Virus record (IMG/VR): IMGVR_UViG_3300030106_004741
Location: 1-62,378 of that record
Reading direction: 5' to 3' (one strand)
Length of the DNA: 62,378 nt
From: a virus
Under the pieces are notes generated by a model. That model saw only the letters and a list, made by a program, of their open reading frames with translations, was not told where the DNA came from and made no database searches. Of the stretch, positions 1-62,378 are shown piece by piece. The translations under genes were made by a program, and so were the position numbers. The number at the start of each line of letters is the position of its first letter. Position 1 is the first letter of the stretch.

Positions 1-100
1 ATGGGTATTTATCTTGTGTGTTTCCACTACCTACATATTTTGCATTTCGTAGGTGTCTATTATAATTAGAATAACCTTTCTTTAATGTTCCATAAACTGC
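1..100. repeat. Left copy of terminal direct overlap
   Basis: Bases 1-100 match 62279-62378 with a single mismatch at base 2 (98 exact bases from base 3). This is the signature of a circular or circularly permuted molecule closed by an assembler, and the gene reading through it stays in frame when the copies are merged. A real short terminal repeat is possible but less likely because the repeat lies inside a coding region. Confidence 0.9.
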
Positions 101-601
101 AACTAAATTTTCTAATAATACATTATCTTTAGAATACCATACTCCATTTTTTCTAATCCATAAATCTTTGTTATATATTTGAAAGGTACGAGTACGAGTA
201 TTTATACTAACAAATCGGTGTTGATATTGTGACAACTCTTTTTTCCAAAGGTGTCTATTTATACCCCCCAACTTTTTTGCAAGAACTTTAGTGTCACATA
301 CATTATAATTACCCATTCCATGTATACTGCCATTCATCATTAATAACTCTTGTTTGTTGTTTCCACACACGAAAGGGTGTGTATTCTCTTTGTTCACTTT
401 ACCAATGGTTGCATATCGAAAGTGTGCAATATAGGGACGAGTGGTGTCTAATATATTATACTCTTTTGATTTGTGATATGATACTTCAAAGGTATCTAAC
501 CACACTATTCCCAATCCGTGAGGATTGATTTTACTTGAGGTTTTTAATACCTCTTTAGAAACTTTTTGTTGTTCCTTTTGTTTTACTATTATAATACACA
601 T
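1..601 (-). CDS. Class-II glutamine amidotransferase / GGCT fusion, N-terminal part (continues at 62279 across the joint)
   Basis: Reading down from ATG at 601, the protein begins Met-Cys, placing a cysteine at position 2 as in Ntn-type class-II glutamine amidotransferases. Residues 60-77 carry an HFRYAT-G...NTHPF block, equivalent to the glutamine-binding R-x-A-T...N-x-H-P region, and NGSI at 90-93 corresponds to the N-G oxyanion-hole motif (the usual preceding His is Met here). At 170-176 a second domain starts with YGTLKKG, the diagnostic glycine loop of gamma-glutamylcyclotransferase (AIG2-like). Merging the terminal repeat gives one open frame of 388 codons ending at 61713. Domain assignment is by motif. 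The expected chemistry is glutamine or gamma-glutamyl amide hydrolysis, then cyclisation to 5-oxoproline. The gene lies downstream of a predicted amidoligase on the same strand. Confidence 0.8.
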   Translation of the reverse strand, partial: MCIIIVKQKEQQKVSKEVLKTSSKINPHGLGIVWLDTFEVSYHKSKEYNILDTTRPYIAHFRYATIGKVNKENTHPFVCGNNKQELLMMNGSIHGMGNYNVCDTKVLAKKLGGINRHLWKKELSQYQHRFVSINTRTRTFQIYNKDLWIRKNGVWYSKDNVLLENLVAVYGTLKKGYSNYNRHLRNAKYVGSGNTQDKYP

Positions 602-711
602 TTTGTTTTGATTTTATGAGTAGAACATTTAATCTTTATGTTCAGAACTCGATTAATAATATACTAATATACGACAAGATTTAGACAATACCAAATATAA
701 CAGGTGTAAAA

Positions 712-742
712 AAAAAGAGAGGGTGGTAAGACACCCCCTCTC
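712..742 (-). terminator. Intrinsic terminator (minus strand)
   Basis: GAGAGGGTG (717-725) pairs with CACCCCCTCTC (732-742), allowing a two-base bulge. On the minus strand the hairpin is followed by a run of about nine U. It would stop transcription arriving from the amidoligase side before the GAT-GGCT gene, implying that gene has its own promoter between 602 and 711. Confidence 0.7.
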
Positions 743-1055
743 AAAATTGATTTATTATACCTATAAAGTTAGTCAGTATAATAAGGTTTAAATGAAATCT
801 TCAATTAAAAAGATATGTAAATATAAGTTAGTTTTATTTCTTGTGCAAATTATTTCTAATTTTTTTTTGATTGCCTCTAAAAAAAGAGAGAGAAACCTAC
901 TTTGCATTACCCCCATGCATTGTAAACTCCTCTCTCCACTTTATAAAAATGATTACACGAATATAATATATATATATAGAACTACCAAATTTATTTTAGT
1001 ATTCACTTTTTATTGTTCAATTTTTATAAAAACCTGCACAACAAATTTTCTACCT

Positions 1056-1086
1056 GGGTCTGGACTGGGTCTGGACTGGGTCTGGA
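1056..1086. repeat. 11-base tandem repeat in a GC-rich island
   Basis: GGGTCTGGACT occurs at 1056-1066 and 1067-1077, with a third partial copy (GGGTCTGGA) at 1078-1086, followed directly by a GC-rich stretch (1087-1103) containing CCGGGCCC. This is the most GC-rich spot in an AT-rich spacer. Confidence 0.8.
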
Positions 1087-1161
1087 GCGCACCGGGCCCT
1101 GGGATTTGTGCTTAACAGAGGTAGAGGATACTCCTTGCCTTAAAATTTTGCACCAAAATTT

Positions 1162-1181
1162 GTTTTTGTTTAAACAAAAAC
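1162..1181. repeat. Perfect 20-base palindrome
   Basis: GTTTTTGTTTAAACAAAAAC equals its own reverse complement. It runs straight into CGAATTATT, and similar AAAACGAA-type words recur at about 1225 and 3490. It could be an operator or a cruciform; nothing in the sequence decides. Confidence 0.6.
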
Positions 1182-1298
1182 GAATTATTGTGTGAAGACA
1201 TTTGCAATTTTTTGTTTTCCATTGCACTGAAAACGAATTATAAAAATAGGCATTCTGGGTTTTTGGGTACAAATTTGTTTTTGTGGGTGTAAAAAAAT

Positions 1299-1316
1299 AG
1301 TGTCTTATAAGACACT
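1299..1316. repeat. Palindrome AGTGTCTT-AT-AAGACACT (copy 1 of family)
   Basis: Perfect 18-base palindrome. On the minus strand it is followed by ATTTTTTT, so it could also work as a terminator. Related copies sit at 3644, 19030, 49103 and 60509. Confidence 0.75.
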
Positions 1317-1323
1317 TTTGTTG

Positions 1324-1344
1324 GTAGTCATAAACTCTGACTAC
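1324..1344. repeat. Inverted repeat GTAGTCA-N7-TGACTAC
   Basis: Seven-base perfect arms with a seven-base spacer. The same arms reappear at 61342-61364 on the other side of the GAT-GGCT gene. Confidence 0.65.
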
Positions 1345-1432
1345 TTTGTTGGGTGTGTGTGGGTTTCGTGTGTGGGGTTTCGTGTCGTGTGTTGGGTGGT
1401 GTGTGTTGGGTGGTGTGGTGTTCGTTCATTAG
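1345..1432. repeat. G/T-rich low-complexity tract with tandem repeats
   Basis: Almost pure G and T on the plus strand. It includes a perfect tandem pair of GTGTGTTGGGTGGT (1387-1400, 1401-1414) and a second near-tandem pair built on TGTGGGTTTCGTG. Five runs of three or more G (from 1351, 1361, 1374, 1394 and 1408) allow a loose G-quadruplex. Confidence 0.7.
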
Positions 1433-1436
1433 AGGG

Positions 1437-1462
1437 CAAAAAAAAGGGGGACAAAGTCCCCC
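1437..1462 (-). terminator. Intrinsic terminator after the amidoligase
   Basis: GGGGGAC (1446-1452) pairs perfectly with GTCCCCC (1456-1462) around an AAA loop, and the minus-strand transcript continues into about nine U. It lies 22 bases past the amidoligase stop codon. Confidence 0.85.
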
Positions 1463-1484
1463 AAATTTTCACAATCAACTCAAC

Positions 1485-2555
1485 TCAACTCGTGACATCT
1501 ATCCCTATCCTTTCTGCCCACTCTTGTTGTAATGGGACTAACCATTTACGAACTCGTGAAGATATCTCTCCTGTGTCAATAAACTTCTGAAAGTGTTTTG
1601 CATCGGTGTATACATCTTTAACTCGTTGTTCATCGTTTGGGAACATTCTCGACACTATCGGTTTTAACTTCTTCCAAAGTTTTGCAAAACTTCTATTCTC
1701 TATGTTATTATCATCGATGATATGGTTTATCAACTCGTAAAAGAACTCGTATCTCCTTATCATCTCTTTGACACTCTTAAATCTCGGTACAACTCTAAAC
1801 TCAATTAAATCTCGTTGTCCTCTTCTACTCGGTTTAATTAAACAAAATTGATACTTTGAGTGAACACTCTCTACTCTCCTCAACTGTTCTTCTCTATTTA
1901 TCCACCTTTGATATTGTCTAGGTGGTTGAAATTGAAATGGAGTGTCGGAGTTCATTCGTAAATTATAATTACAGTAGTTGTTTGATAATCTTTTACGATA
2001 TAAACTCATCACAAAACCACTAAACAAACGAACTCGTTTATTTAACTCTGTCCCACTCATTCCCACAACTCCAATAGTGGTGTGTCCTCCACATGTTCTG
2101 TCGGAGGGAGAATATCTATCGTCTATTAAACTCTCGGCATCTTTCATTAGAGAGAATACCTTATTTCTCCATCTACCTCTCGGAATTAATGGGAGTATAT
2201 TTGACACTCCCTCTGTTTCACAAGAACTATCTCTTTCGAGTTTGTTAAAAAATATGGTTTCTTTCACTACACTATCAACTCTAGTGAATAACTCGGCATT
2301 GTCGATACATTCTCGTGCAAAACCTAACTTCTCCACCTCAAAACCTACTGATACTCTTGAAATATATCCCCTTTCTCTGTCTTTTATGATATGTTTGTTA
2401 ATATCCTTTGTTGTCATTCCGTTTAAGTCCTCTCGGTGTAGAGAATTATTTAGAAATCTAGGGGAAGGGGCATTTGATGATTGGTAAGGGAATATCCTCC
2501 CTCTTCTCCTCTCGTTTAATAATTGGTATTTAATACCTGTTTTTAATCTGTTCAT
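1485..2555 (-). CDS. Predicted amidoligase (GCS/glutamine-synthetase-like COOH-NH2 ligase)
   Basis: 356 residues. Motifs in the order expected for the Amidoligase_2 family: GFEVE near residue 72 (the GxExE strand that binds nucleotide/metal), LERDSSC followed by EGVSNILPLIP near 107-126 (the D-x-S...E-x-S-P block), CGGHTTIG near 155 (the G-x-H-x-H-like block), and LIEFRVVPRF in the C-terminal third (the E-x-R strand). Such enzymes form amide bonds between a carboxylate and an amine using ATP. Known family neighbourhoods contain a glutamine-amidotransferase-like thiol peptidase or an AIG2 cyclotransferase; here both occur, fused, in the next gene on this strand. The start is preceded by an A-rich leader ending ATAAAA. 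Assignment is by motif and context; substrate unknown. Confidence 0.72.
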   Translation of the reverse strand: MNRLKTGIKYQLLNERRRGRIFPYQSSNAPSPRFLNNSLHREDLNGMTTKDINKHIIKDRERGYISRVSVGFEVEKLGFARECIDNAELFTRVDSVVKETIFFNKLERDSSCETEGVSNILPLIPRGRWRNKVFSLMKDAESLIDDRYSPSDRTCGGHTTIGVVGMSGTELNKRVRLFSGFVMSLYRKRLSNNYCNYNLRMNSDTPFQFQPPRQYQRWINREEQLRRVESVHSKYQFCLIKPSRRGQRDLIEFRVVPRFKSVKEMIRRYEFFYELINHIIDDNNIENRSFAKLWKKLKPIVSRMFPNDEQRVKDVYTDAKHFQKFIDTGEISSRVRKWLVPLQQEWAERIGIDVTS

Positions 2556-2779: not shown

Positions 2780-3406
2780 TTATTGATTGTTAGATATTGG
2801 TGGGTATTCATTGTTAGATAAATACTCGGCAAACTTCTCCATAACTTTTTGAACTTCATCGTTTGTCATATCTGTTTTAAATTCTCCATTGACTATTTTA
2901 AAGGACTTTGAAGAGATATCAAACTTCATCTTAACTGATAGTGTGGTTTCTGTTCTCGGTGTCATCGGTGTTTCTTCTCCATTTCCCTCAGTATTCAACT
3001 CTTTAACGAACTTCAAACAATTTTCAACACTTCTGACTATCGGTGTCCCCTCTTCTTTTAATCTGTTTACTTCTCTGTTAAATTTGTTGATTGTAGTTGT
3101 CGGGGTGTTCCCTATTTTTACCATTTTATAGAAAAAACTTTTATTCCACCCGAAAATCTTTTGAGAAAAGTCCTCGACACTCCACGAAATTCCCTCTTCC
3201 TCGAATACTTCTTTACATCTATCTGACTTGAAATACTTAAATGATTTTAAAACTAACTTTGACATCTTTACAGATGTATCGAACTTGGTTGAATTACTCT
3301 CATCAATAATGGTTTGTAAATCTGTGATTTGTGAGATTTGTAAACCTCTGGAGATTTGTGCATTCTCGTTAAAAAGCTGCACTTCATTTGACATTAAATT
3401 GTTCAT
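2780..3406 (-). CDS. Hypothetical protein, possible helix-turn-helix DNA-binding protein
   Basis: 208 residues, not assigned to a family. A central segment (about residues 70-97) reading SWSVEDFSQKIFGWNKSFFY resembles the helix-turn-helix of plasmid/phage regulators, where a Gly-Trp turn precedes the recognition helix; this is a weak inference. The C-terminal third is acidic and predicted helical. It is the first gene of the minus-strand arm leaving the 3.4-3.95 kb divergent region, a position suiting an early regulator or initiator. Confidence 0.55.
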   Translation of the reverse strand: MNNLMSNEVQLFNENAQISRGLQISQITDLQTIIDESNSTKFDTSVKMSKLVLKSFKYFKSDRCKEVFEEEGISWSVEDFSQKIFGWNKSFFYKMVKIGNTPTTTINKFNREVNRLKEEGTPIVRSVENCLKFVKELNTEGNGEETPMTPRTETTLSVKMKFDISSKSFKIVNGEFKTDMTNDEVQKVMEKFAEYLSNNEYPPISNNQ

Positions 3407-4926: not shown

Positions 4927-5214
4927 ATGAAGACAGTTAATTTAAGAAAACAATATACAACTCCATTTAAACAACAACCTGAACGGTTTGTTAACACACA
5001 ACCTGTAATGCCTACTACTCCTGTTGCACCTGTTAGTGTTCCCACAACAACACAACAACCGGTACAACCTGTAGAACCTACAGAGAACACTGACACAGTT
5101 GTAAACAATAATGTTAAAACAGGAATGCAAAATAACATTAACACACAAAGTAACCCTACGGCAGTAAATGTACCTGCACCGAAGGAAAGTTTAACTAATA
5201 AAAAAATGACATAA
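4927..5214 (+). CDS. Pro/Thr/Gln-rich protein with MKTxxLRK start
   Basis: 95 residues. After MKTVNLRK the chain becomes low-complexity, rich in Pro, Thr, Val, Asn and Gln, and looks disordered. That such a different body carries the same first eight residues as its basic neighbours argues that the N-terminus is a functional tag. It lies in the same operon, three bases after the previous stop. No function recognised. Confidence 0.6.
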   Translation: MKTVNLRKQYTTPFKQQPERFVNTQPVMPTTPVAPVSVPTTTQQPVQPVEPTENTDTVVNNNVKTGMQNNINTQSNPTAVNVPAPKESLTNKKMT

Positions 5215-5216
5215 TT

Positions 5217-5429
5217 ATGGAATACGATGGCTTAGAAGTTCGTAATGGACGATTAATAAATAACAGACCTCAGTCTGAAATGGGAATTGACATGGCTTGT
5301 AGACTTCGTGCTAAAATGAAAGGCGCAAAGTTAGTACAACAAATTGCCGATGGAATAGAATTATCTGAAGAAAGAAAAAGAATGCAAGAAATTTTTGGAC
5401 CTATTCCTACAGATTTCTTTAAGAAATAA
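5217..5429 (+). CDS. Small hypothetical protein
   Basis: 70 residues, mixed charge, no membrane segment. It is the last gene of the 3956-5429 operon, starting directly after the preceding stop, and is followed by a hairpin terminator. Family not recognised. Confidence 0.6.
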   Translation: MEYDGLEVRNGRLINNRPQSEMGIDMACRLRAKMKGAKLVQQIADGIELSEERKRMQEIFGPIPTDFFKK

Positions 5430-5455
5430 ACAACCCTTTTTGTTTTGATGTGGAT

Positions 5456-5482
5456 TAGGGGGCTTATGTCCCCTTTTCTTTT
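5456..5482 (+). terminator. Intrinsic terminator after the basic-protein operon
   Basis: GGGG (5459-5462) pairs with CCCC (5470-5473) with a short inner pair possible, followed by TTTTCTTTTT. It ends where the convergent small minus-strand gene stops. Confidence 0.65.
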
Positions 5483-5649
5483 TAATATGGAGAAGGCATC
5501 TTTACTCCAGCACCTTTCAAATCTTCTACACTTCCTATTACATAATGTTGATTGTCTGACATATATAAATCAAAGATATATGAATAGTCTTTATTAAGTC
5601 TATCATATTCTTCTTTAGATATCTTTATTATCTTTTTATATTCAGGCAT
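5482..5649 (-). CDS. Small hypothetical protein (55 residues)
   Basis: Starts MPEYKKIIKISKEEYDRL and ends KMPSPY before TAA at 5482-5484. It is a lone minus-strand gene inside the plus arm. A TATCTTTG box on the minus strand lies about 70 bases upstream (5722-5729), which supports it as a real gene. Acidic/basic mix with an amphipathic first helix; no family recognised. Possibly a small regulator, by position only. Confidence 0.6.
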   Translation of the reverse strand: MPEYKKIIKISKEEYDRLNKDYSYIFDLYMSDNQHYVIGSVEDLKGAGVKMPSPY

Positions 5650-5721
5650 TATACTGCTAAGATAAAGATAATTATCATAAGTAAAATATACAGGTATTTA
5701 GTTATATCTATTTTCATATAA

Positions 5722-5729
5722 CAAAGATA
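5722..5729 (-). promoter_or_regulatory. TATCTTTG promoter box (minus)
   Basis: Exact Bacteroidetes -7 box reading toward the 55-residue gene that starts at 5649; predicted leader about 65 bases. Confidence 0.55.
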
Positions 5730-5771
5730 ACACTTCTAATGTTAAGGCAATGTTAATTATCGACACTAACT

Positions 5772-5837
5772 ATGTCGTTTTTATGTCGATTTTAACTACT
5801 TAACTAACTGATAGTCAGAACTAGTGTCGAAAATGTC
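5772..5837. repeat. Iteron-like repeat block (copy A)
   Basis: Repeated ATGTCG/ATTT words, then CTAACT-type and GTGTC words. Bases 5783-5837 align without gaps to 55371-55425 at about 41 of 55 identical positions, and the match continues upstream in the ATGTCG words. It includes 18-base element copy 2 (5800-5817). Confidence 0.6.
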
Positions 5838-5922
5838 AGAAAATGTTTCAAAATTTTATACGATGATTTTATATAATAGGGGTATATATATATATATAAA
5901 TAGGAGGTTGTAAAAAATATCA

Positions 5923-5930
5923 TATCTTTG
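5923..5930 (+). promoter_or_regulatory. TATCTTTG promoter box, near-leaderless
   Basis: The ATG at 5935 lies only four bases after the box, so the transcript should begin at or next to the start codon. Likely drives 5935 through the GroEL-GroES genes, as no other promoter is visible before 8435. Confidence 0.7.
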
Positions 5931-5934
5931 TAAC

Positions 5935-6327
5935 ATGACATTTGATATTAGAACAAACGAAGAGAATCAATACTTGGCTTTAACGACACTATATAATCAA
6001 CAACTATATATAGAGTCTAAACTTGTAAAAGAAGAAAATAGAGATAAAGAGTATATTAAGGTATTAGAAGAAAGATTAGCTATGCCCTCTGATTTAACTA
6101 TTGACCAATATCTAAAAGACTTTAAACAATACTCAAAACTAGAGTATAACCAAAAACACCCTGAAGAATATTTTGAACAAAAGGTAAAAGACATTTTTGA
6201 GTTTCCTGGAAAAAGGATTGTATTAAAATTAAAAACAGAAAAATTTGTATATTTGTCGCAAGAATTTAGTACATTTGATAAACTGCAAGAGTTTATAGCT
6301 TTAGTAGTTACAACAAAAAAACATTAA
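5935..6327 (+). CDS. Hypothetical protein upstream of GroEL
   Basis: 130 residues, soluble, mostly helical with a short strand-rich end. No family recognised. It starts directly at a TATCTTTG promoter and is 16 bases upstream of the chaperonin gene, so it is probably co-transcribed with it and expressed from a near-leaderless mRNA. Confidence 0.65.
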   Translation: MTFDIRTNEENQYLALTTLYNQQLYIESKLVKEENRDKEYIKVLEERLAMPSDLTIDQYLKDFKQYSKLEYNQKHPEEYFEQKVKDIFEFPGKRIVLKLKTEKFVYLSQEFSTFDKLQEFIALVVTTKKH

Positions 6328-6343
6328 AATAAAATAAAATAAA

Positions 6344-7957
6344 ATGAATCAATCAAACGGGTACTCCCCTAAAGAACTATTCTTCGGTTCTAATGGAAGG
6401 GAAAAATTAATTAAAGGAATAGACAAGTTATCTAATGCGGTAAAAAGCACACTCGGACCACGAGGTAATACAGTGCTTATAGAATCTCCTGAACACACAC
6501 ATGGAATTACTGTAACTAAAGACGGTGTAACCGTAGCAAAGTCTGTTTCGTTAATAGACCCTGTTGAAAACCTCGCGGTTAGAATGATGAAAGAAGCGGC
6601 AGAAAGAACAGCCACTAGTGCGGGTGACGGAACAACTACGGCAATAGTATTGACTGAGGCAGTGGTAAAAGCTGCATTAAACACTATACAACCTAAAGAC
6701 AATAAAACGGAAATACTTCGTGAGTTGGTAGAGGGTACTAAAGAGGTGGTTAAGTATTTAAAGAAAGAGGGAGTAAAGATTGCACCATCTACTTTAAAAG
6801 ATGTAGCAACTATATCTGCTAACAACGATTCTTTTATTGGAGATATTATATCTAAAGTTCATAATGAGGTTGGGGAGAATGGAATTGTAACGGTAGAAAA
6901 ATCTCAAACAGCAGAAACTTATTATGAAACCACAAAGGGAGTTAAGATAGATAGAGGATATACAAGTCCTTTATTTGTTAATAACCAAAAGAAAGATGAA
7001 TGTATATTAGAAGATGTGCATATATTAGTTTCAGATGCAGAAATAAATAATATATTAAACATTGAAAATATATTAAAACCAATTATCCAAGAGGGGAAAA
7101 AACTTTTACTTATATGTCCTTGTTCAAATAATGTAATAAATACATTGTCCGCTAATGTAATGAAAAGGAGTTTAAAAGTATGTAATATACCCCCACCCTC
7201 TTTTGGATATAAACAACACGAATTAATGCAAGACATAGCTCTTTCTGTAGGTGCAACATATTTCTCTGAAAAGACGGGAGATGATTTGAGCATCATAAAC
7301 TTCTCCGATTTAGGGAGGGCGTCCAAGGTGATAGTTGGTCGGGACTCTACAATCATTCTCTCGTCAGAGAAAACTGAAGAACATCACAATCTTATAGACA
7401 CTCGTGTTTCTGAATTAAAAGAAGCCCATAAGATGGCAACTAAAAAGGGTGATAAAGAATTTATACTATCTCGTATTGCATCTTTAACAGGAGGGATAGG
7501 AGTTATATATGTGGGAGGAAACACTGACCTTGAGCAAAAGGAATTATATGATAGGGTAGATGATGCTGTATGTGCAGTTCGTTCTGCACTTGTAGAAGGA
7601 ATTTTACCAGGAGCAGGGTTAGCTTTATATAATTTTACATATAACATGAAGGAATATGAGAGTTATTCTGAGTCTAAAAAAATTGCTTACGCAATTTTAA
7701 CTAAAGCTCTTAATGCTCCTTTAAACCAAATACTTAAAAATGCAGGACTTAAATCTGAAAAGATTTATAATACAGGATTTAAAAAGGGAATAGGATATGA
7801 TGTGAAAAATGGAGAAATTGGAAATCTTATTAAATTAGGGGTAATAGACCCTGTAAAGGTAACTAGAACAGCATTGCAAAATGCTGTGTCAGTTGCAGTA
7901 ACTATTTTAAGTACGGATGCTATTATTACAATGGCACGTTCATACGAAACTAACTAA
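6344..7957 (+). CDS. groEL: GroEL-like chaperonin
   Basis: 537 residues, close to the bacterial length of about 545. Family features: TLGPRGNTVLI near residue 38-48, the ATP-binding GDGTTTA loop near 93-99, an apical-domain region near 190-370, RVDDAVCAVRSALVEG near 400 (equivalent of the catalytic Asp of GroEL) and LPGAG. It lacks the C-terminal GGM tail, ending SYETN. It should form a double ring that folds phage (probably capsid) proteins. A GroES gene follows 220 bases later. The sequence is divergent in the apical domain, as phage chaperonins tend to be. Confidence 0.95.
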   Translation: MNQSNGYSPKELFFGSNGREKLIKGIDKLSNAVKSTLGPRGNTVLIESPEHTHGITVTKDGVTVAKSVSLIDPVENLAVRMMKEAAERTATSAGDGTTTAIVLTEAVVKAALNTIQPKDNKTEILRELVEGTKEVVKYLKKEGVKIAPSTLKDVATISANNDSFIGDIISKVHNEVGENGIVTVEKSQTAETYYETTKGVKIDRGYTSPLFVNNQKKDECILEDVHILVSDAEINNILNIENILKPIIQEGKKLLLICPCSNNVINTLSANVMKRSLKVCNIPPPSFGYKQHELMQDIALSVGATYFSEKTGDDLSIINFSDLGRASKVIVGRDSTIILSSEKTEEHHNLIDTRVSELKEAHKMATKKGDKEFILSRIASLTGGIGVIYVGGNTDLEQKELYDRVDDAVCAVRSALVEGILPGAGLALYNFTYNMKEYESYSESKKIAYAILTKALNAPLNQILKNAGLKSEKIYNTGFKKGIGYDVKNGEIGNLIKLGVIDPVKVTRTALQNAVSVAVTILSTDAIITMARSYETN

Positions 7958-13586: not shown

Positions 13587-13861
13587 GAGAAAACACAAAG
13601 GTTAGTACTGACTTAAAATTTATTATCAGTTTTGTAATAATGATAGTAGGGTTGGTGGGTACTTATTATAATCTTGTAGGACAAGTAAATGAATTAGAAC
13701 TTAAGGTAAATAAGTTCGATGGATATCCTAGTGCTAATGAGATAAACATGAAAAATGAACTGATACGACAAACAGTTTTATCCAACAAAGAAACATTAGA
13801 TGCTATAGAAAACAAGATAGATGTTATGGATGAAAGATTGTATCAAGTAATTCAAAAATAA
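13574..13861 (+). CDS. Membrane-anchored coiled-coil protein (lysis-region)
   Basis: 95 residues: a single hydrophobic span (about 17-34) followed by a coiled coil (VNELELKVN..., IENKIDVMDERLYQ). Topology resembles an inner-membrane spanin or a holin accessory factor, and it lies just before the endolysin and holin genes. Family not recognised; role inferred from position. Confidence 0.5.
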   Translation: MAQIGENTKVSTDLKFIISFVIMIVGLVGTYYNLVGQVNELELKVNKFDGYPSANEINMKNELIRQTVLSNKETLDAIENKIDVMDERLYQVIQK

Positions 13862-14223
13862 TGCGAGTTTTATTTTATTTATTATTATTCTTTACCACCC
13901 TGTGTATAGGGCAAGATTATATCCAAGAGGATAAGTTTGAGGAAGTGTTGAGTGAAGATATTGTAATAATTGAGTTTTATGCAGATTGGAACAAAGACAA
14001 TAAAATAGATTTAAAAGAATTTAAGGATGTGAAGTCTTATGTAGTAAATGTAGAAGACTGTCCCAATTTAACTAAAGAATACAAAATACTTTCTGTTCCT
14101 ACCCTAATTATTTTTAATAATAAAAAGGTGGTGGAAAAATATGAAGCTGATTTAACTTTTCAGTTATGTATAAAGGCAGCTAAAAAGAAAGTAGAAGAAT
14201 TAGTATTAAAGAAATTTATGTAA
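13861..14223 (+). CDS. Secreted thioredoxin-fold protein lacking the CXXC motif
   Basis: 120 residues, signal peptide 1-17 ending CIGQ. IVIIEFYADWNKDN (35-47) is the thioredoxin strand and active-site region, but the usual WCxxC is WNKDN; the cis-proline motif SVPTLIIF (P80) is kept. So it has the fold without the redox pair. One Cys (C67) remains in the mature chain. Probably periplasmic, perhaps a binding or chaperone protein for the other secreted proteins. Overlaps the previous stop by one base. Confidence 0.65.
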   Translation: MRVLFYLLLFFTTLCIGQDYIQEDKFEEVLSEDIVIIEFYADWNKDNKIDLKEFKDVKSYVVNVEDCPNLTKEYKILSVPTLIIFNNKKVVEKYEADLTFQLCIKAAKKKVEELVLKKFM

Positions 14224-14225
14224 GT

Positions 14226-14705
14226 ATGAAGTTGTCGAAAAATTTTTCTCTTTCGGAGTTTTTAAAATCTAATGTGGCTAAGCGTCACGGAATCTCTAAT
14301 TCTCCCGAAGAACATCATATTGAACAGATGAAGTTATTGTGTGAAAACACATTACAACCTATAAGAGATGGCATAGGTTCTATTGGTATTAATTCAGGAT
14401 TTAGGTCAAAAGAATTAAACAAAGCACTTGGTGGAGCTCATAAAATAAAAGATGGAGTTTATGTTGCTACAAGTCAACACTGTAAAGGACAAGCGGCAGA
14501 TTTAAAATTCAGAAACAAAGAAGGGAAGGTAGACAATAAGGTTATATGGGATTATGTTATAGAAGAAGGAGTTGAGTTCGACCAAATGATAAATGAATTT
14601 GATTTTGCATGGATACATATATCTTATAATCCTGAAGGAAATAGGTGTCAATTATTAGAGGCATATAAGGGTTCTAATGGAAAAACTAAATATAAAAAAG
14701 TATGA
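14226..14705 (+). CDS. Endolysin, M15-type peptidase
   Basis: 159 residues. INSGFRSKELNKALGG and SQHCKGQAADL, with WIHIS later, give the zinc-binding and catalytic set of the M15 D-Ala-D-Ala carboxypeptidase-like family (H85, D92, H131). It cleaves peptidoglycan cross-links or stem peptides for host lysis. No signal peptide, so it needs the holin encoded immediately downstream, which overlaps it by four bases. Confidence 0.88.
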   Translation: MKLSKNFSLSEFLKSNVAKRHGISNSPEEHHIEQMKLLCENTLQPIRDGIGSIGINSGFRSKELNKALGGAHKIKDGVYVATSQHCKGQAADLKFRNKEGKVDNKVIWDYVIEEGVEFDQMINEFDFAWIHISYNPEGNRCQLLEAYKGSNGKTKYKKV

Positions 14706-15076
14706 TAAAAGGATTTATAAAATCACTAATTGGAGATGCATCTACTATTATTGATGAAGTGGTTACATCTAAAGAAGAAAAAATAGCACTACGAAATGCT
14801 ATGAAAAAAATGTTATTAGAATCAGAAGTAGAGTTGCAAAAAAATGTGACAGAAAGGTGGAAGGCAGATATGCAATCCGACTCGTGGTTAAGTAAAAATG
14901 TAAGACCCCTTACATTAGCGTTTCTATTAGTTTCTACAGTTTTACTCATATTTATAGATGCGGGTTTTATTAACTTTGAAGTCAAAAATTCATGGGTAGA
15001 TTTATTACAGCTTGTCATGATTTCTGTAGTGGGGGCGTATTTTGGAGGTCGTTCACTTGAAAAAATTAAAAAATAA
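14702..15076 (+). CDS. Holin, 3TM-holin-like
   Basis: 124 residues: an N-terminal amphipathic helix, a charged coiled segment (KEEKIALRNAMKKMLLESEV), the motif RWKADMQSDSWLSKNVRPLT, then hydrophobic spans (about 73-92 and 98-115). This order is characteristic of the GTA_holin_3TM family. It should permeabilise the inner membrane to release the endolysin. Confidence 0.8.
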   Translation: MIKGFIKSLIGDASTIIDEVVTSKEEKIALRNAMKKMLLESEVELQKNVTERWKADMQSDSWLSKNVRPLTLAFLLVSTVLLIFIDAGFINFEVKNSWVDLLQLVMISVVGAYFGGRSLEKIKK

Positions 15077-17214: not shown

Positions 17215-17433
17215 ATGGATATAAGAAAAATTTCTGTAGGACCTGATTATAAATCAAGTTCTATGCATTATATTGTAGGTCAACCTGTTTTAAATGGAGC
17301 TTACACTATACATTTAATAAAACAAGAAAAGGATATGGTAAAGATTTGGATAGAACAAGATAATGAAATTATTTTGTGGAAATCTTTTAATCACAACATG
17401 CCTATTGCAACTGAATATAATATCAATTTCTAA
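17215..17433 (+). CDS. Small conserved hypothetical protein
   Basis: 72 residues, beta-rich: MDIRKISVGPDYKSSSMHYI, then VLNGAYTIHLIKQE and IWIEQDNEIILWKSF. I recognise the opening from marine phages but know no function. Overlaps the next start by one base. Confidence 0.55.
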   Translation: MDIRKISVGPDYKSSSMHYIVGQPVLNGAYTIHLIKQEKDMVKIWIEQDNEIILWKSFNHNMPIATEYNINF

Positions 17434-18014
17434 TGCAGTCGCCTTTTTATTTTATTGTTACACCTTTGTTAAACAAAAGGTATGACAACTCTAAGGTTAT
17501 TGGAGGTAAAGAAATTATTGTAAGTACATCAGATGAAGACCATAGGTTTTCCAATAGACACGCAAAAGTAATAAGTGTTCCATTAGGGTATGAGGGAGAT
17601 ATAGAAAAAGGAGATACTTTGTTGGTTCATCATAATGTTTTTAAGTTTTATCATGACATGAGGGGCAGACAAAGAAGTGGTAGAAGTTTTTTAAAAGATG
17701 ATTTATTTTTTGTAGATGAAGAACAGTTTTTTATGTATAAAAAACATAATTATGGGTTTTTGAAAACCAAATGGAATGCAATAAATCGATATTGTTTTGT
17801 TGAACCTGTAGATGTAGAAGATAGTATTATAAAAAAACCTTTACAACATGAACCATTAGTAGGTATTATGAGATATCCTAATAAATACTTAAAAAGCAAA
17901 GGAGTAAAAGAGGGGGATAAAGTTTCTTTTCAACCAGATAGTGAGTATGAATTTACGGTGGAAGGGAAAAAAATGTATCGTATATATGACCATCAAATTA
18001 CTATAAAATTATGA
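17433..18014 (+). CDS. Beta-barrel protein, possibly two GroES-like domains
   Basis: 193 residues. AKVISVPLGYEGDIEKGDTL with VHHNVFKFYHDMRG in the first half, and VGIMRYPNK...GVKEGDKVSFQPDSE ending MYRIYDHQITIKL in the second half, look like two repeats of a GroES-type barrel (strand, GD turn, strand). Fold inferred from pattern only; it may be a structural or assembly factor. Overlaps the oxygenase gene by four bases (ATGA). Confidence 0.4.
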   Translation: MQSPFYFIVTPLLNKRYDNSKVIGGKEIIVSTSDEDHRFSNRHAKVISVPLGYEGDIEKGDTLLVHHNVFKFYHDMRGRQRSGRSFLKDDLFFVDEEQFFMYKKHNYGFLKTKWNAINRYCFVEPVDVEDSIIKKPLQHEPLVGIMRYPNKYLKSKGVKEGDKVSFQPDSEYEFTVEGKKMYRIYDHQITIKL

Positions 18015-58103: not shown

Positions 58104-58392
58104 TTTCTTCTATTCTTTCTATTACACTTAAATAATCTTTGTCTTCATTTATTTTTTCTTCCACTTGATTTATTCCATGAATAATAGATGAGTGGTTAAT
58201 TCTATAACCTCTACTTTCCATAAAGTCCTGTATATAAGTAATTCTCATAGGTCTTTTTTTACATAAGTAATATAAAAGATGACGAGCATCAACTTTGTTT
58301 CTTTCTTTGGACTTTGTAAACAATTCAAGTTCAGGCAACTCAAATACACGAGCAACCTCTTGCACATATTTTTTAAATATATCTTTTTTCAT
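58096..58392 (-). CDS. DnaA domain-IV-like DNA-binding protein (second copy)
   Basis: 98 residues. VDARHLLYYLCKKRPMRITY, then IQDFMESRGYRINHSSIIHG, is again the DnaA domain IV helix-turn-helix (HSSIIHG equivalent to the HSTVxHA signature). No ATPase part. May be an initiator, or may titrate DnaA boxes. Overlaps the methyltransferase by 20 bases. Confidence 0.75.
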   Translation of the reverse strand: MKKDIFKKYVQEVARVFELPELELFTKSKERNKVDARHLLYYLCKKRPMRITYIQDFMESRGYRINHSSIIHGINQVEEKINEDKDYLSVIERIEENV

Positions 58393-59572
58393 TTTCTAAA
58401 ATTTTTTTAATTATTCCTTTTAACACATTTACACTCATACTATTACCTGCTTGTTTATATAATTGAGTGTCACTTATATCATTATCTTTGCAGTTTTTAA
58501 AAAACACATCTTCAAAACCTTGCAGTCTTAAACACTCTAATGGTGTTAATCTTCTTATGTTTTGTTTTTTTTCTTTTACCAGAGGAGCACTTCTGCTTAT
58601 TTCACTCGCACTGTTTTTAGATGCAGTTAAACAGGGTGATAACCCATTTTCTCTTATTCTTAACCCTTCATCTGTTCTCACATCTGCAATCCACTCTATT
58701 TCTCCCACCATACTATCTAAAGAATGAGTTGTGATGGTATTAACCACATTGTCACTTCTAAACTCTAACCTTTTTTGTCTATCCTGATTTGCATCGGCAC
58801 TTGATTTTCTTGGCCATGTTCTTAATGCACAACCCCTTACCTCTATTAAATCATCTGCTCTTGCCCCACCAACCTTTAATGCACTCATAATTCCTTCAGT
58901 GTCGTGAAACTTTGCACGAAAACCATTTCCTTTTTCTTCATTCCTTTTATTGTATTCTTTTAATTTTTCTATTTGTTGTTCTTTTAAAAAATACTTTTCC
59001 TCCACATTACTTTCTAACAAATGTTTGATTTTAATTTCTAAATTAACATGTTGTGGCCACTCAAAATAATGCTCATCTCTAAACCCCACTATAAAAATTC
59101 TCTCTCTATTTTGTGGTATACCGAAATGTTTCGTATTTAAAACCTTTGCATAAGTCCTGTACTTTGTTTCTTTTAAACACTCCATTATAGTTCGGTATGT
59201 GTTTCCTTTGTCGTGATTTACTAAACCCTTTACATTTTCTAAAATAAAATACTTGGGTCTTACATGTTGAATGTATTGTAATAAATCAAAAAACAATGTA
59301 CCTCGTGTATCCTCAAATCCTTTTCGTTTACCCGCAATACTAAATGCCTGACACGGAAAACCTGCGACATATAAATCTACATAGGGTGTGTTTTTTTGTT
59401 CCCGTGCAGTAATGTCGTCATAAAAAATTTCAGGATTATAATTAGAAAGATAACTTTTCTTTGCCCACTTATCTACATCACATGCAAACTTTACCCTGTG
59501 TTCTATACCTAATTGTTTTAATGCTTGTTCTGGAGCACCTATTCCGCTAAAGTCCGTTCCTACTTTTATCAT
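58373..59572 (-). CDS. DNA (cytosine-5) methyltransferase
   Basis: 399 residues with all core motifs: I FSGIGAPEQAL, IV GFPCQAFS (catalytic C74), VI ENVKG (E112), VIII PQNRERIF, the variable target-recognition region (about 190-330), IX RRLTPLECLRLQGFE, and X QAGNSMSVNV. Full-length and apparently intact. No cognate endonuclease is adjacent, so it is probably an orphan enzyme protecting phage DNA from restriction. Confidence 0.95.
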   Translation of the reverse strand: MIKVGTDFSGIGAPEQALKQLGIEHRVKFACDVDKWAKKSYLSNYNPEIFYDDITAREQKNTPYVDLYVAGFPCQAFSIAGKRKGFEDTRGTLFFDLLQYIQHVRPKYFILENVKGLVNHDKGNTYRTIMECLKETKYRTYAKVLNTKHFGIPQNRERIFIVGFRDEHYFEWPQHVNLEIKIKHLLESNVEEKYFLKEQQIEKLKEYNKRNEEKGNGFRAKFHDTEGIMSALKVGGARADDLIEVRGCALRTWPRKSSADANQDRQKRLEFRSDNVVNTITTHSLDSMVGEIEWIADVRTDEGLRIRENGLSPCLTASKNSASEISRSAPLVKEKKQNIRRLTPLECLRLQGFEDVFFKNCKDNDISDTQLYKQAGNSMSVNVLKGIIKKILENEKRYI

Positions 59573-61712: not shown

Positions 61713-62378
61713 CTATATACTGTCGGTTAAAACATCATTTTCTGCAAACCATTCTCCACAACTATTGCAATAGTAGTTAGAGAACTCATCGAATTGTAAA
61801 TCACAATAACAATTAACACAATAAGGTTTTGTTTCTAGGATATCTTCCTCTCTAATAACCTCACTATCTCGGCAACTGTCAATAGTTAAATCTTGAATAG
61901 GTTGCACATTACCCCAATCAAAAGAATTATCACTCCAATCAAAAAGAGAGGGAGTATAACTTTTCGTTTTTTGAGTTTGTTTTGTTTTTGATTTCCAACT
62001 ACCCCTCTTTGTGTAATTACTGAAACTCCAATTTTGAGTATATGTTTTGTGAAACTGTGTTCCCTTTGTTATTTCTTGTGGGTTAAAGTATAACCAACAA
62101 TTAATAATCTTTCCACTTGACAATTTGATAGGTATCAATTCTCTTCTATACCAACGAGGATGTCCCTCTAGGTTGTCTAAATCTTTAAAAGTGGTGTTAG
62201 ATACTTTAAATACATCTACCTTAACATTATGTCCAACTCCTTTTTTGTTTACCACATAAGGTAGTCCCTGAATAATTAAAGGGTATTTATCTTGTGTGTT
62301 TCCACTACCTACATATTTTGCATTTCGTAGGTGTCTATTATAATTAGAATAACCTTTCTTTAATGTTCCATAAACTGC
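61713..62378 (-). CDS. GAT-GGCT-zinc-ribbon fusion, C-terminal part (continues from 601 across the joint)
   Basis: Entering from the joint, residues about 169-240 form the cyclotransferase core: YGTLKKG (170-176), then FKDLDNLEGHPRWYRRELIP, in which E238 aligns with the catalytic Glu of gamma-glutamylcyclotransferases (human E98, in an EQEG context). After a Ser/Lys/Thr-rich linker (about 275-300), the last 35 residues carry CVNC (354, 357) and CNSC (371, 374), a zinc ribbon. A GTG at 62255 could look like a start, but the frame is open far upstream through the joint, so the full 388-residue product is preferred. Amidotransferase, cyclotransferase and zinc ribbon on one chain is an arrangement I do not recognise. 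Confidence 0.8.
   Translation of the reverse strand, partial: AVYGTLKKGYSNYNRHLRNAKYVGSGNTQDKYPLIIQGLPYVVNKKGVGHNVKVDVFKVSNTTFKDLDNLEGHPRWYRRELIPIKLSSGKIINCWLYFNPQEITKGTQFHKTYTQNWSFSNYTKRGSWKSKTKQTQKTKSYTPSLFDWSDNSFDWGNVQPIQDLTIDSCRDSEVIREEDILETKPYCVNCYCDLQFDEFSNYYCNSCGEWFAENDVLTDSI
62279..62378. repeat. Right copy of terminal direct overlap
   Basis: Partner of 1-100; see there. Removing one copy leaves about 62,278 unique bases. Confidence 0.9.

Follow-up and report, generated by a model that had tools for sequence, protein, structure and literature searches.

Amidoligase modules of phages were reportedly noted by Iyer et al. in 2009. The closest described system is the seven-gene putative peptidoglycan modification cassette of RIO1-like podoviruses, which the sections of PMC5498523 devoted to it list for phiEco32, 7-11, PA11, tf, MR299-2, LUZ24, PaP3 and CW02, plus RIO-1 and PSA-HP1. 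Those sections cite Iyer et al. 2009 and Hardies et al. 2013 for the joint presence in podoviruses of an amidoligase, a glutamine amidotransferase (GAT, or GATase) and a gamma-glutamyl cyclotransferase (GGCT), and place the cassettes among early and replication genes. The same statement is made for a LUZ24-like phage (PMC11945000), and OM43 phages are described as carrying an amidoligase with a GATase (PMC10580990). Roles in nitrogen metabolism (Phage-ZRK32, PMC10945688) and in 'host material recycling' (PSA-HP1, PMC5498523) have been proposed; the portions of these four papers that treat the module contain no enzymology, and its product is hypothesised. The window considered here is the whole 62,378-nucleotide stretch of IMG/VR record IMGVR_UViG_3300030106_004741, from an uncultured virus, in which two minus-strand genes specify a predicted amidoligase and a predicted amidotransferase-cyclotransferase fusion. 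With a probability of roughly 0.55, these form a reduced two-gene amidoligase/GAT/gamma-glutamyl cyclotransferase module that builds and remodels gamma-glutamyl/amide bonds on a host compound.

The predicted ligase and its fused partner

The pair comprises the following features, with the basis of each assignment in brackets.

1 to 601, minus strand: first part of the fused enzyme, with the class-II GAT (residues ~1-165; Cys2 codon at 596-598) and the start of the gamma-glutamylamine cyclotransferase (GGACT) domain, continuing at 62378 (joint, family, fold, invariant Gln-binding motifs).
61713 to 62378, minus strand: second part of the fused enzyme, with the GGACT domain (62028-62375), a low-complexity linker and a C-terminal zinc ribbon (PF06094 match, E82 alignment, Foldseek).
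62166 to 62168, minus strand: codon of E238, the proposed general acid/base (aligned with E82 of human GGACT).
Within about 61758 to 61820, minus strand: the four cysteines of the zinc ribbon (family alignment).
3 to 100 (= 62281-62378), no strand: terminal overlap closing the circle (sequence identity; collinear with the open reading frame of the relative L084).
1485 to 2555, minus strand: divergent amidoligase of predicted glutamine synthetase (GS)/GCS fold, 356 amino acids (residue conservation, AlphaFold/Foldseek, hhalign).
Within the ligase, minus strand: proposed active site, E73xE75 (2331-2339), E107/D109 (2229-2237), E115 (2211-2213), H158 (2082-2084) and E252xR254 (1794-1802) (invariance in the family).

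Because the first and last ~98 bases of the record are identical (bases 3-100 match 62281-62378, a 98-base overlap), the genome is circularly closed or circularly permuted. When the overlap is collapsed, a single open minus-strand frame of 388 residues runs from 601 across the joint to 61713; when it is left uncollapsed, the frame is broken. In L084 the same open reading frame is uninterrupted, 65% identical, and aligns without gaps over the joint, and a joining artefact as the source of the fusion is thereby ruled out. The original prediction had read this chain as an amidotransferase, a gamma-glutamylcyclotransferase and a zinc ribbon with Cys2 and E238 as catalytic residues, and the overlap, the collinearity with L084 and the domain searches bear it out.

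The order of domains in the chain is class-II GAT, GGACT, zinc ribbon. Residues 167-284 match PF06094 (GGACT/AIG2-like; E 5.7e-21, 75.7 bits against a Pfam cut-off of 22.8; E 8.1e-23 in a further profile search), while the class-II GATase families fall short of their cut-offs (GATase_4, E 1.6e-4, 21.1 versus 23 bits; GATase_6, E 5e-4, 20.5 versus 27 bits). The L084 homologue, modelled by AlphaFold with a predicted local distance difference test (pLDDT) score of 87, retrieves with Foldseek mouse and human GGACT (3jub/3juc/1vkb; E 5e-10 to 1e-9) and the amidotransferase part of GFAT-1 (E ~1e-6), with AsnB and PurF weaker. In an alignment of 59 family members, Cys2, H60-F-R62-x-A-T65, H75-P76, N90-G91 and D103 are unchanged throughout, and presumably correspond to the residues lining the glutamine pocket in GlmS/PurF. 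E238, whose aligned counterpart in human GGACT is E82 (the site of the mutation in 3jud), is kept in 58 of the 59, the lone exception being a protein that has no GGACT domain; Y-G-T-L and E238 thus occur in all 58 chains with that domain, and the four zinc-ribbon cysteines in 57-58 of the 59. The active-site residues originally proposed are accordingly those that the family conserves.

On the alignment and the model, the N-terminal half is assigned to the class-II amidotransferases and the C-terminal half to the GGACT type. Like GFAT-1/GlmS, PurF and AsnB, the former has a cysteine after the initiator Met, the arginine, the Asn-Gly oxyanion hole and the glutamine-pocket Asp, but the phage chain has no synthase domain and carries a cyclotransferase instead. 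The latter finds its best structural and sequence match in human and mouse GGACT (3jub/1vkb), with which it shares the YGTLK motif and the catalytic Glu; the mammalian enzyme, however, stands alone, whereas the phage domain is part of a fusion. We would expect each half to recognise a gamma-glutamyl group in its free form. The substrates of GGACT-type enzymes, the human one included, are gamma-glutamylamines (PMC7022552).

The ligase has no match in Pfam or PHROG searches of the protein at 1485-2555, nor did hmmsearch with its profile find any among PDB sequences. Its AlphaFold model, built on a 62-sequence alignment, has a pLDDT of 87.3 and a predicted TM-score (pTM) of 0.88, and the 50 PDB matches that Foldseek listed are all either glutamine synthetases or YbdK, a carboxylate-amine ligase (best E 8e-5, probability 1.0), in keeping with the GS/GCS-type fold first suggested for this gene. 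Comparison by hhalign of the ligase family with seven phage Amidoligase_2 proteins gave 95%, E 4e-8 over 178 columns, with the motifs in register (GFEVEK/GIELEF, ERDSSC-E/DAS-E, CGGHIT/CG-HVH and LEFR/IEFR). E107, D109, E115, H158, E252 and R254 are unchanged in 62/62 sequences and E73/E75 in 61, the remaining one being truncated; we take the shape and order of these residues to be consistent with a GS-superfamily metal/ATP site. Predicted fold, motifs and profile comparison together place the ligase with the GS-type amidoligases, and fold, profile match and invariant residues rule out a chance resemblance. It resembles Amidoligase_2 (PF12224) in fold class, motif order and spacing, but the family lies below the PF12224 threshold in 48 records, has large N- and C-terminal additions, and has CGGHITI in place of G-HVHH. 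For both proteins of the pair the enzyme classes can be assigned with high confidence, and those originally given are correct on the family alignments, models and profile matches.

The ligase homologue of MW202828 (L003:9926-11650) has an extra N-terminal region of ~225 residues. When about 85,000 genomes of bacteria and archaea were scanned for the ligase family pattern, no cellular gene emerged, only a single phage-like contig (L171:2449-2709; 12 kb, in an Erythrobacter metagenome-assembled genome), which is probably stray phage DNA; a cellular origin of the ligase was not borne out.

Distribution of the pair and related modules

Scans of IMG/VR placed ligase relatives in 193 contig stretches and relatives of the fused enzyme in 154, of which 80 each were kept. 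Where a ligase locus extends 6 kb or more downstream, the fused enzyme is present in 58 of 58 cases, counting L045, whose partner is a GAT without a GGACT domain; where a fused-enzyme locus extends 6 kb or more upstream, the ligase is present in 61 of 61. This pairing, which had been anticipated for related phages, is far beyond chance. The isolates related by terminase have Flavobacterium, Cellulophaga, Tenacibaculum and Maribacter as hosts; in four such isolates, relatives from Flavobacterium, Cellulophaga and Tenacibaculum, neither gene was found, nor GGACT anywhere. Because co-occurrence is strict in the clade and both genes are absent from these four relatives, a small sample, the two genes are taken to be gained and lost as a unit. 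Shine-Dalgarno sites precede 2 of 49 window genes, and genes of Bacteroidota likewise lack such sites; the hosts of this virus are probably flavobacteria.

Modules of other composition provide, by analogy, independent support for a functional link between the ligase and the fused enzyme. The first kind is found in C75C1 (OQ984151) and its IMG/VR relatives, phages of another kind with genomes of ~40 kb. Here the same GAT-GGACT fusion lies 1-3 kb downstream of an amidoligase, but that amidoligase is a canonical Amidoligase_2 (PF12224, E 3.5e-30), the fusion has no zinc ribbon and the phage is unrelated. The fusion is therefore not peculiar to the present phage: it is found in C75C1-type phages and in all relatives checked except L045. 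In place of the fusion, L045 encodes a GAT that has a tail rich in Cys and lacks a cyclotransferase domain; this GAT adjoins a second GS-type ligase (the two together at L045:5016-7162), and a search for GGACT elsewhere in the L045 genome found none. The second ligase (5016-6224) shares the fold family of the first (hhalign 98%, E 1.7e-14), is unseen by Pfam and has a long N-terminal extension.

Separate-gene versions span phages of Arthrobacter, Bacillus, Geobacillus, Salinivibrio and Escherichia. Arthrobacter phage Salgado has separate genes in the order GGCT-amidoligase-GATase, and phage Ottawa has amidoligase-GATase with a GGACT gene directly before; Bacillus 055SW001 and Geobacillus GR1 have an amidoligase and GGACT with no annotated GAT nearby. 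In Kuravirus O18-011, separate genes follow one another in the order amidoligase-GATase-ATP-grasp-GGCT, and CW02 and MW202615 have larger sets that include a COOH-NH2 ligase and an ATP-grasp enzyme.

Surrounding genes

Gene order around the pair is constant: GroEL (on the opposite strand), a protein of 208-214 amino acids, the ligase, GAT-GGACT, a single-stranded DNA-annealing protein, an exonuclease and a primase. The window genes outside the pair that bear on its interpretation or accompany it are these.

2780 to 3406, minus strand: conserved upstream partner of 208 amino acids (homologue just before the amidoligase in 134/144 pair loci).
6344 to 7957, plus strand: GroEL (PF00118, E 3.4e-57; clade-wide beside the amidoligase module, on the opposite strand).
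13861 to 15076, plus strand: thioredoxin, M15 peptidase (likely the endolysin) and a holin with three transmembrane segments, in a row; a probable lysis cassette (window protein scans).
17433 to 18014, plus strand: GroES-like protein (PHROG 13932).
58373 to 59572, minus strand: cytosine-5 DNA methyltransferase (PF00145, E 1.1e-75; in 1 of 161 related loci).

The 208-residue protein has no usefully scoring match in Pfam or PHROG and is possibly a DNA-binding regulator. A third universal gene between the members of the pair was looked for and rejected, the commonest genes there occurring in at most 83 of the 144 loci; at 23 of the 144, a short gene whose product looks secreted and weakly matches the SLT-transglycosylase family of Pfam (E 0.002) lies between or near them. 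Identity to the nearest phages is 39-46% for the ligase, 34-44% for the 208-residue protein, 63-67% for GAT-GGACT and 80-86% for the replication proteins, and the higher divergence of segment 1485-3406 on the minus strand suggests that it has been replaced or is fast-changing. The non-coding DNA that separates the two genes contains short repeats at 1060-1090 and 1345-1425 (ctgggtctgga...; gtgtgggtttcgtgtg...).

Proposed function and its alternatives

As in the described cassette, amidoligase, GATase and GGCT are encoded together here, and the module genes run with replication genes. The original prediction had offered the union of ligase, hydrolase and cyclotransferase in one phage as new, which it is not, being present already in the podovirus cassette (the cassette passages of PMC5498523 and PMC11945000) and, as separate genes, in Salgado, Kuravirus O18-011 and CW02. 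The window resembles the cassette in having a GS-type amidoligase, a class-II GAT and a gamma-glutamyl cyclotransferase among early/replication genes; unlike the cassette it has two genes, a GAT-GGACT fusion that bears a zinc ribbon, a ligase beyond the reach of PF12224, and neither ATP-grasp nor COOH-NH2_lig. The pair is best described as a reduced, fused variant that shares three enzyme activities and is not a full member. What is new relative to the described cassettes is the two-gene reduction, the GAT-GGACT fusion and a widespread amidoligase family missed by Pfam.

That the pair acts by gamma-glutamyl/amide chemistry is likely. The ligase would use ATP to activate a carboxylate for coupling with ammonia or an amine; glutamine or a gamma-glutamyl amide would be hydrolysed by the GAT half, either to supply ammonia or to trim; and the GGACT half would free a gamma-glutamyl cap as 5-oxoproline. 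During infection the two proteins would between them make gamma-glutamyl/amide bonds on some host compound and rework them. The leading, though tentative, candidate for that compound is a peptidoglycan stem peptide or precursor, because of the hypothesis in the literature, the early-gene position and the SLT-transglycosylase-like gene near the pair at 23 loci; an altered wall could block competing phages or host hydrolases.

Several results weigh against this proposal. No RimK-type ATP-grasp enzyme (PF08443) was found in the window, 40 relatives or MW202828, and a search of the genome for the second ligase COOH-NH2_lig (PF14395) found none, although the positive controls CW02 and MW202615 matched in both cases; with both enzymes absent, the product must be simpler than, or different from, that of the described cassettes. 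PF12224 is not matched above its gathering cut-off in the window ligase, 47 related records or MW202828 (positive control C75C1, detected), and the global TM-scores of the ligase to GS are low (0.25-0.32). The peptidoglycan target draws on the published hypothesis and a weak neighbourhood hint. As for the fused GAT, it could just as well act as a glutaminase whose ammonia goes to the ligase.

That possibility leads to the alternative that survives best, itself rather unlikely, in which the pair is purely an amidation machine. The GAT glutaminase would channel ammonia to an amidoligase that amidates a carboxylate (compare AsnB-type enzymes, or MurT/GatD on peptidoglycan), and GGACT would merely clear gamma-glutamyl by-products or host gamma-glutamylamines. 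The GS fold natively uses ammonia, the residues of the GlmS/PurF-type glutamine pocket are all invariant, and phage amidoligases adjoin a GAT in Ottawa and Salgado. The fusion, however, joins GAT to GGACT and not to the ligase, and in Geobacillus GR1 and Bacillus 055SW001 the amidoligase is accompanied by GGACT, with no annotated GAT nearby. Bond remodelling is favoured over plain ammonia supply because two domains predicted to recognise gamma-glutamyl groups are fused directly and because such modules with GGACT and no annotated GAT exist. A bolder extension of the remodelling proposal, and an unlikely one, is a self-contained two-gene writer/eraser in phages of (probably) flavobacteria: the ligase would write a gamma-glutamyl/amide mark on one defined host molecule, and the fused protein would remove it by hydrolysis and cyclisation, so that the mark is turned over in infection. 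We know of no demonstration of such chemistry for any virus.

Distinctly less plausible is nitrogen/glutamate salvage, in which gamma-glutamyl compounds and ammonia are recycled by auxiliary metabolic genes for phage replication. Salvage fits the position of the pair among replication genes and is what the relevant passages propose for Phage-ZRK32 (PMC10945688) and PSA-HP1 (PMC5498523), but an ATP-consuming ligase makes bonds and does not save them, and the ligase family has no cellular gene in the genome scan described above. The make-trim-release cycle of the original prediction, read as reversible tagging of host proteins by an amide or isopeptide bond, is improbable: the ligase is accompanied by two candidate removers of gamma-glutamyl groups, and human GGACT acts on gamma-glutamylamines, but there is no conserved gene for a carrier peptide or target, only the upstream 208-residue protein being near-universal beside the pair at the 144 loci. 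Least credible of all is that the pair hypermodifies DNA nucleobases, or that it removes a host defence signal, a small molecule with an amide or gamma-glutamyl group, since although phages use amide chemistry on bases and this one encodes a cytosine-5 methyltransferase, that gene is in 1/161 related loci only and no hypermodification enzyme was found among the window proteins scanned.

The two genes are almost never separate, and the pair is therefore the simplest version of the module to express and assay. Because Pfam and PHROGs miss the ligase, the frequency of the module in a large group of aquatic phages is underestimated. If wall modification is its true function, the pair would be a defined tool of superinfection exclusion.

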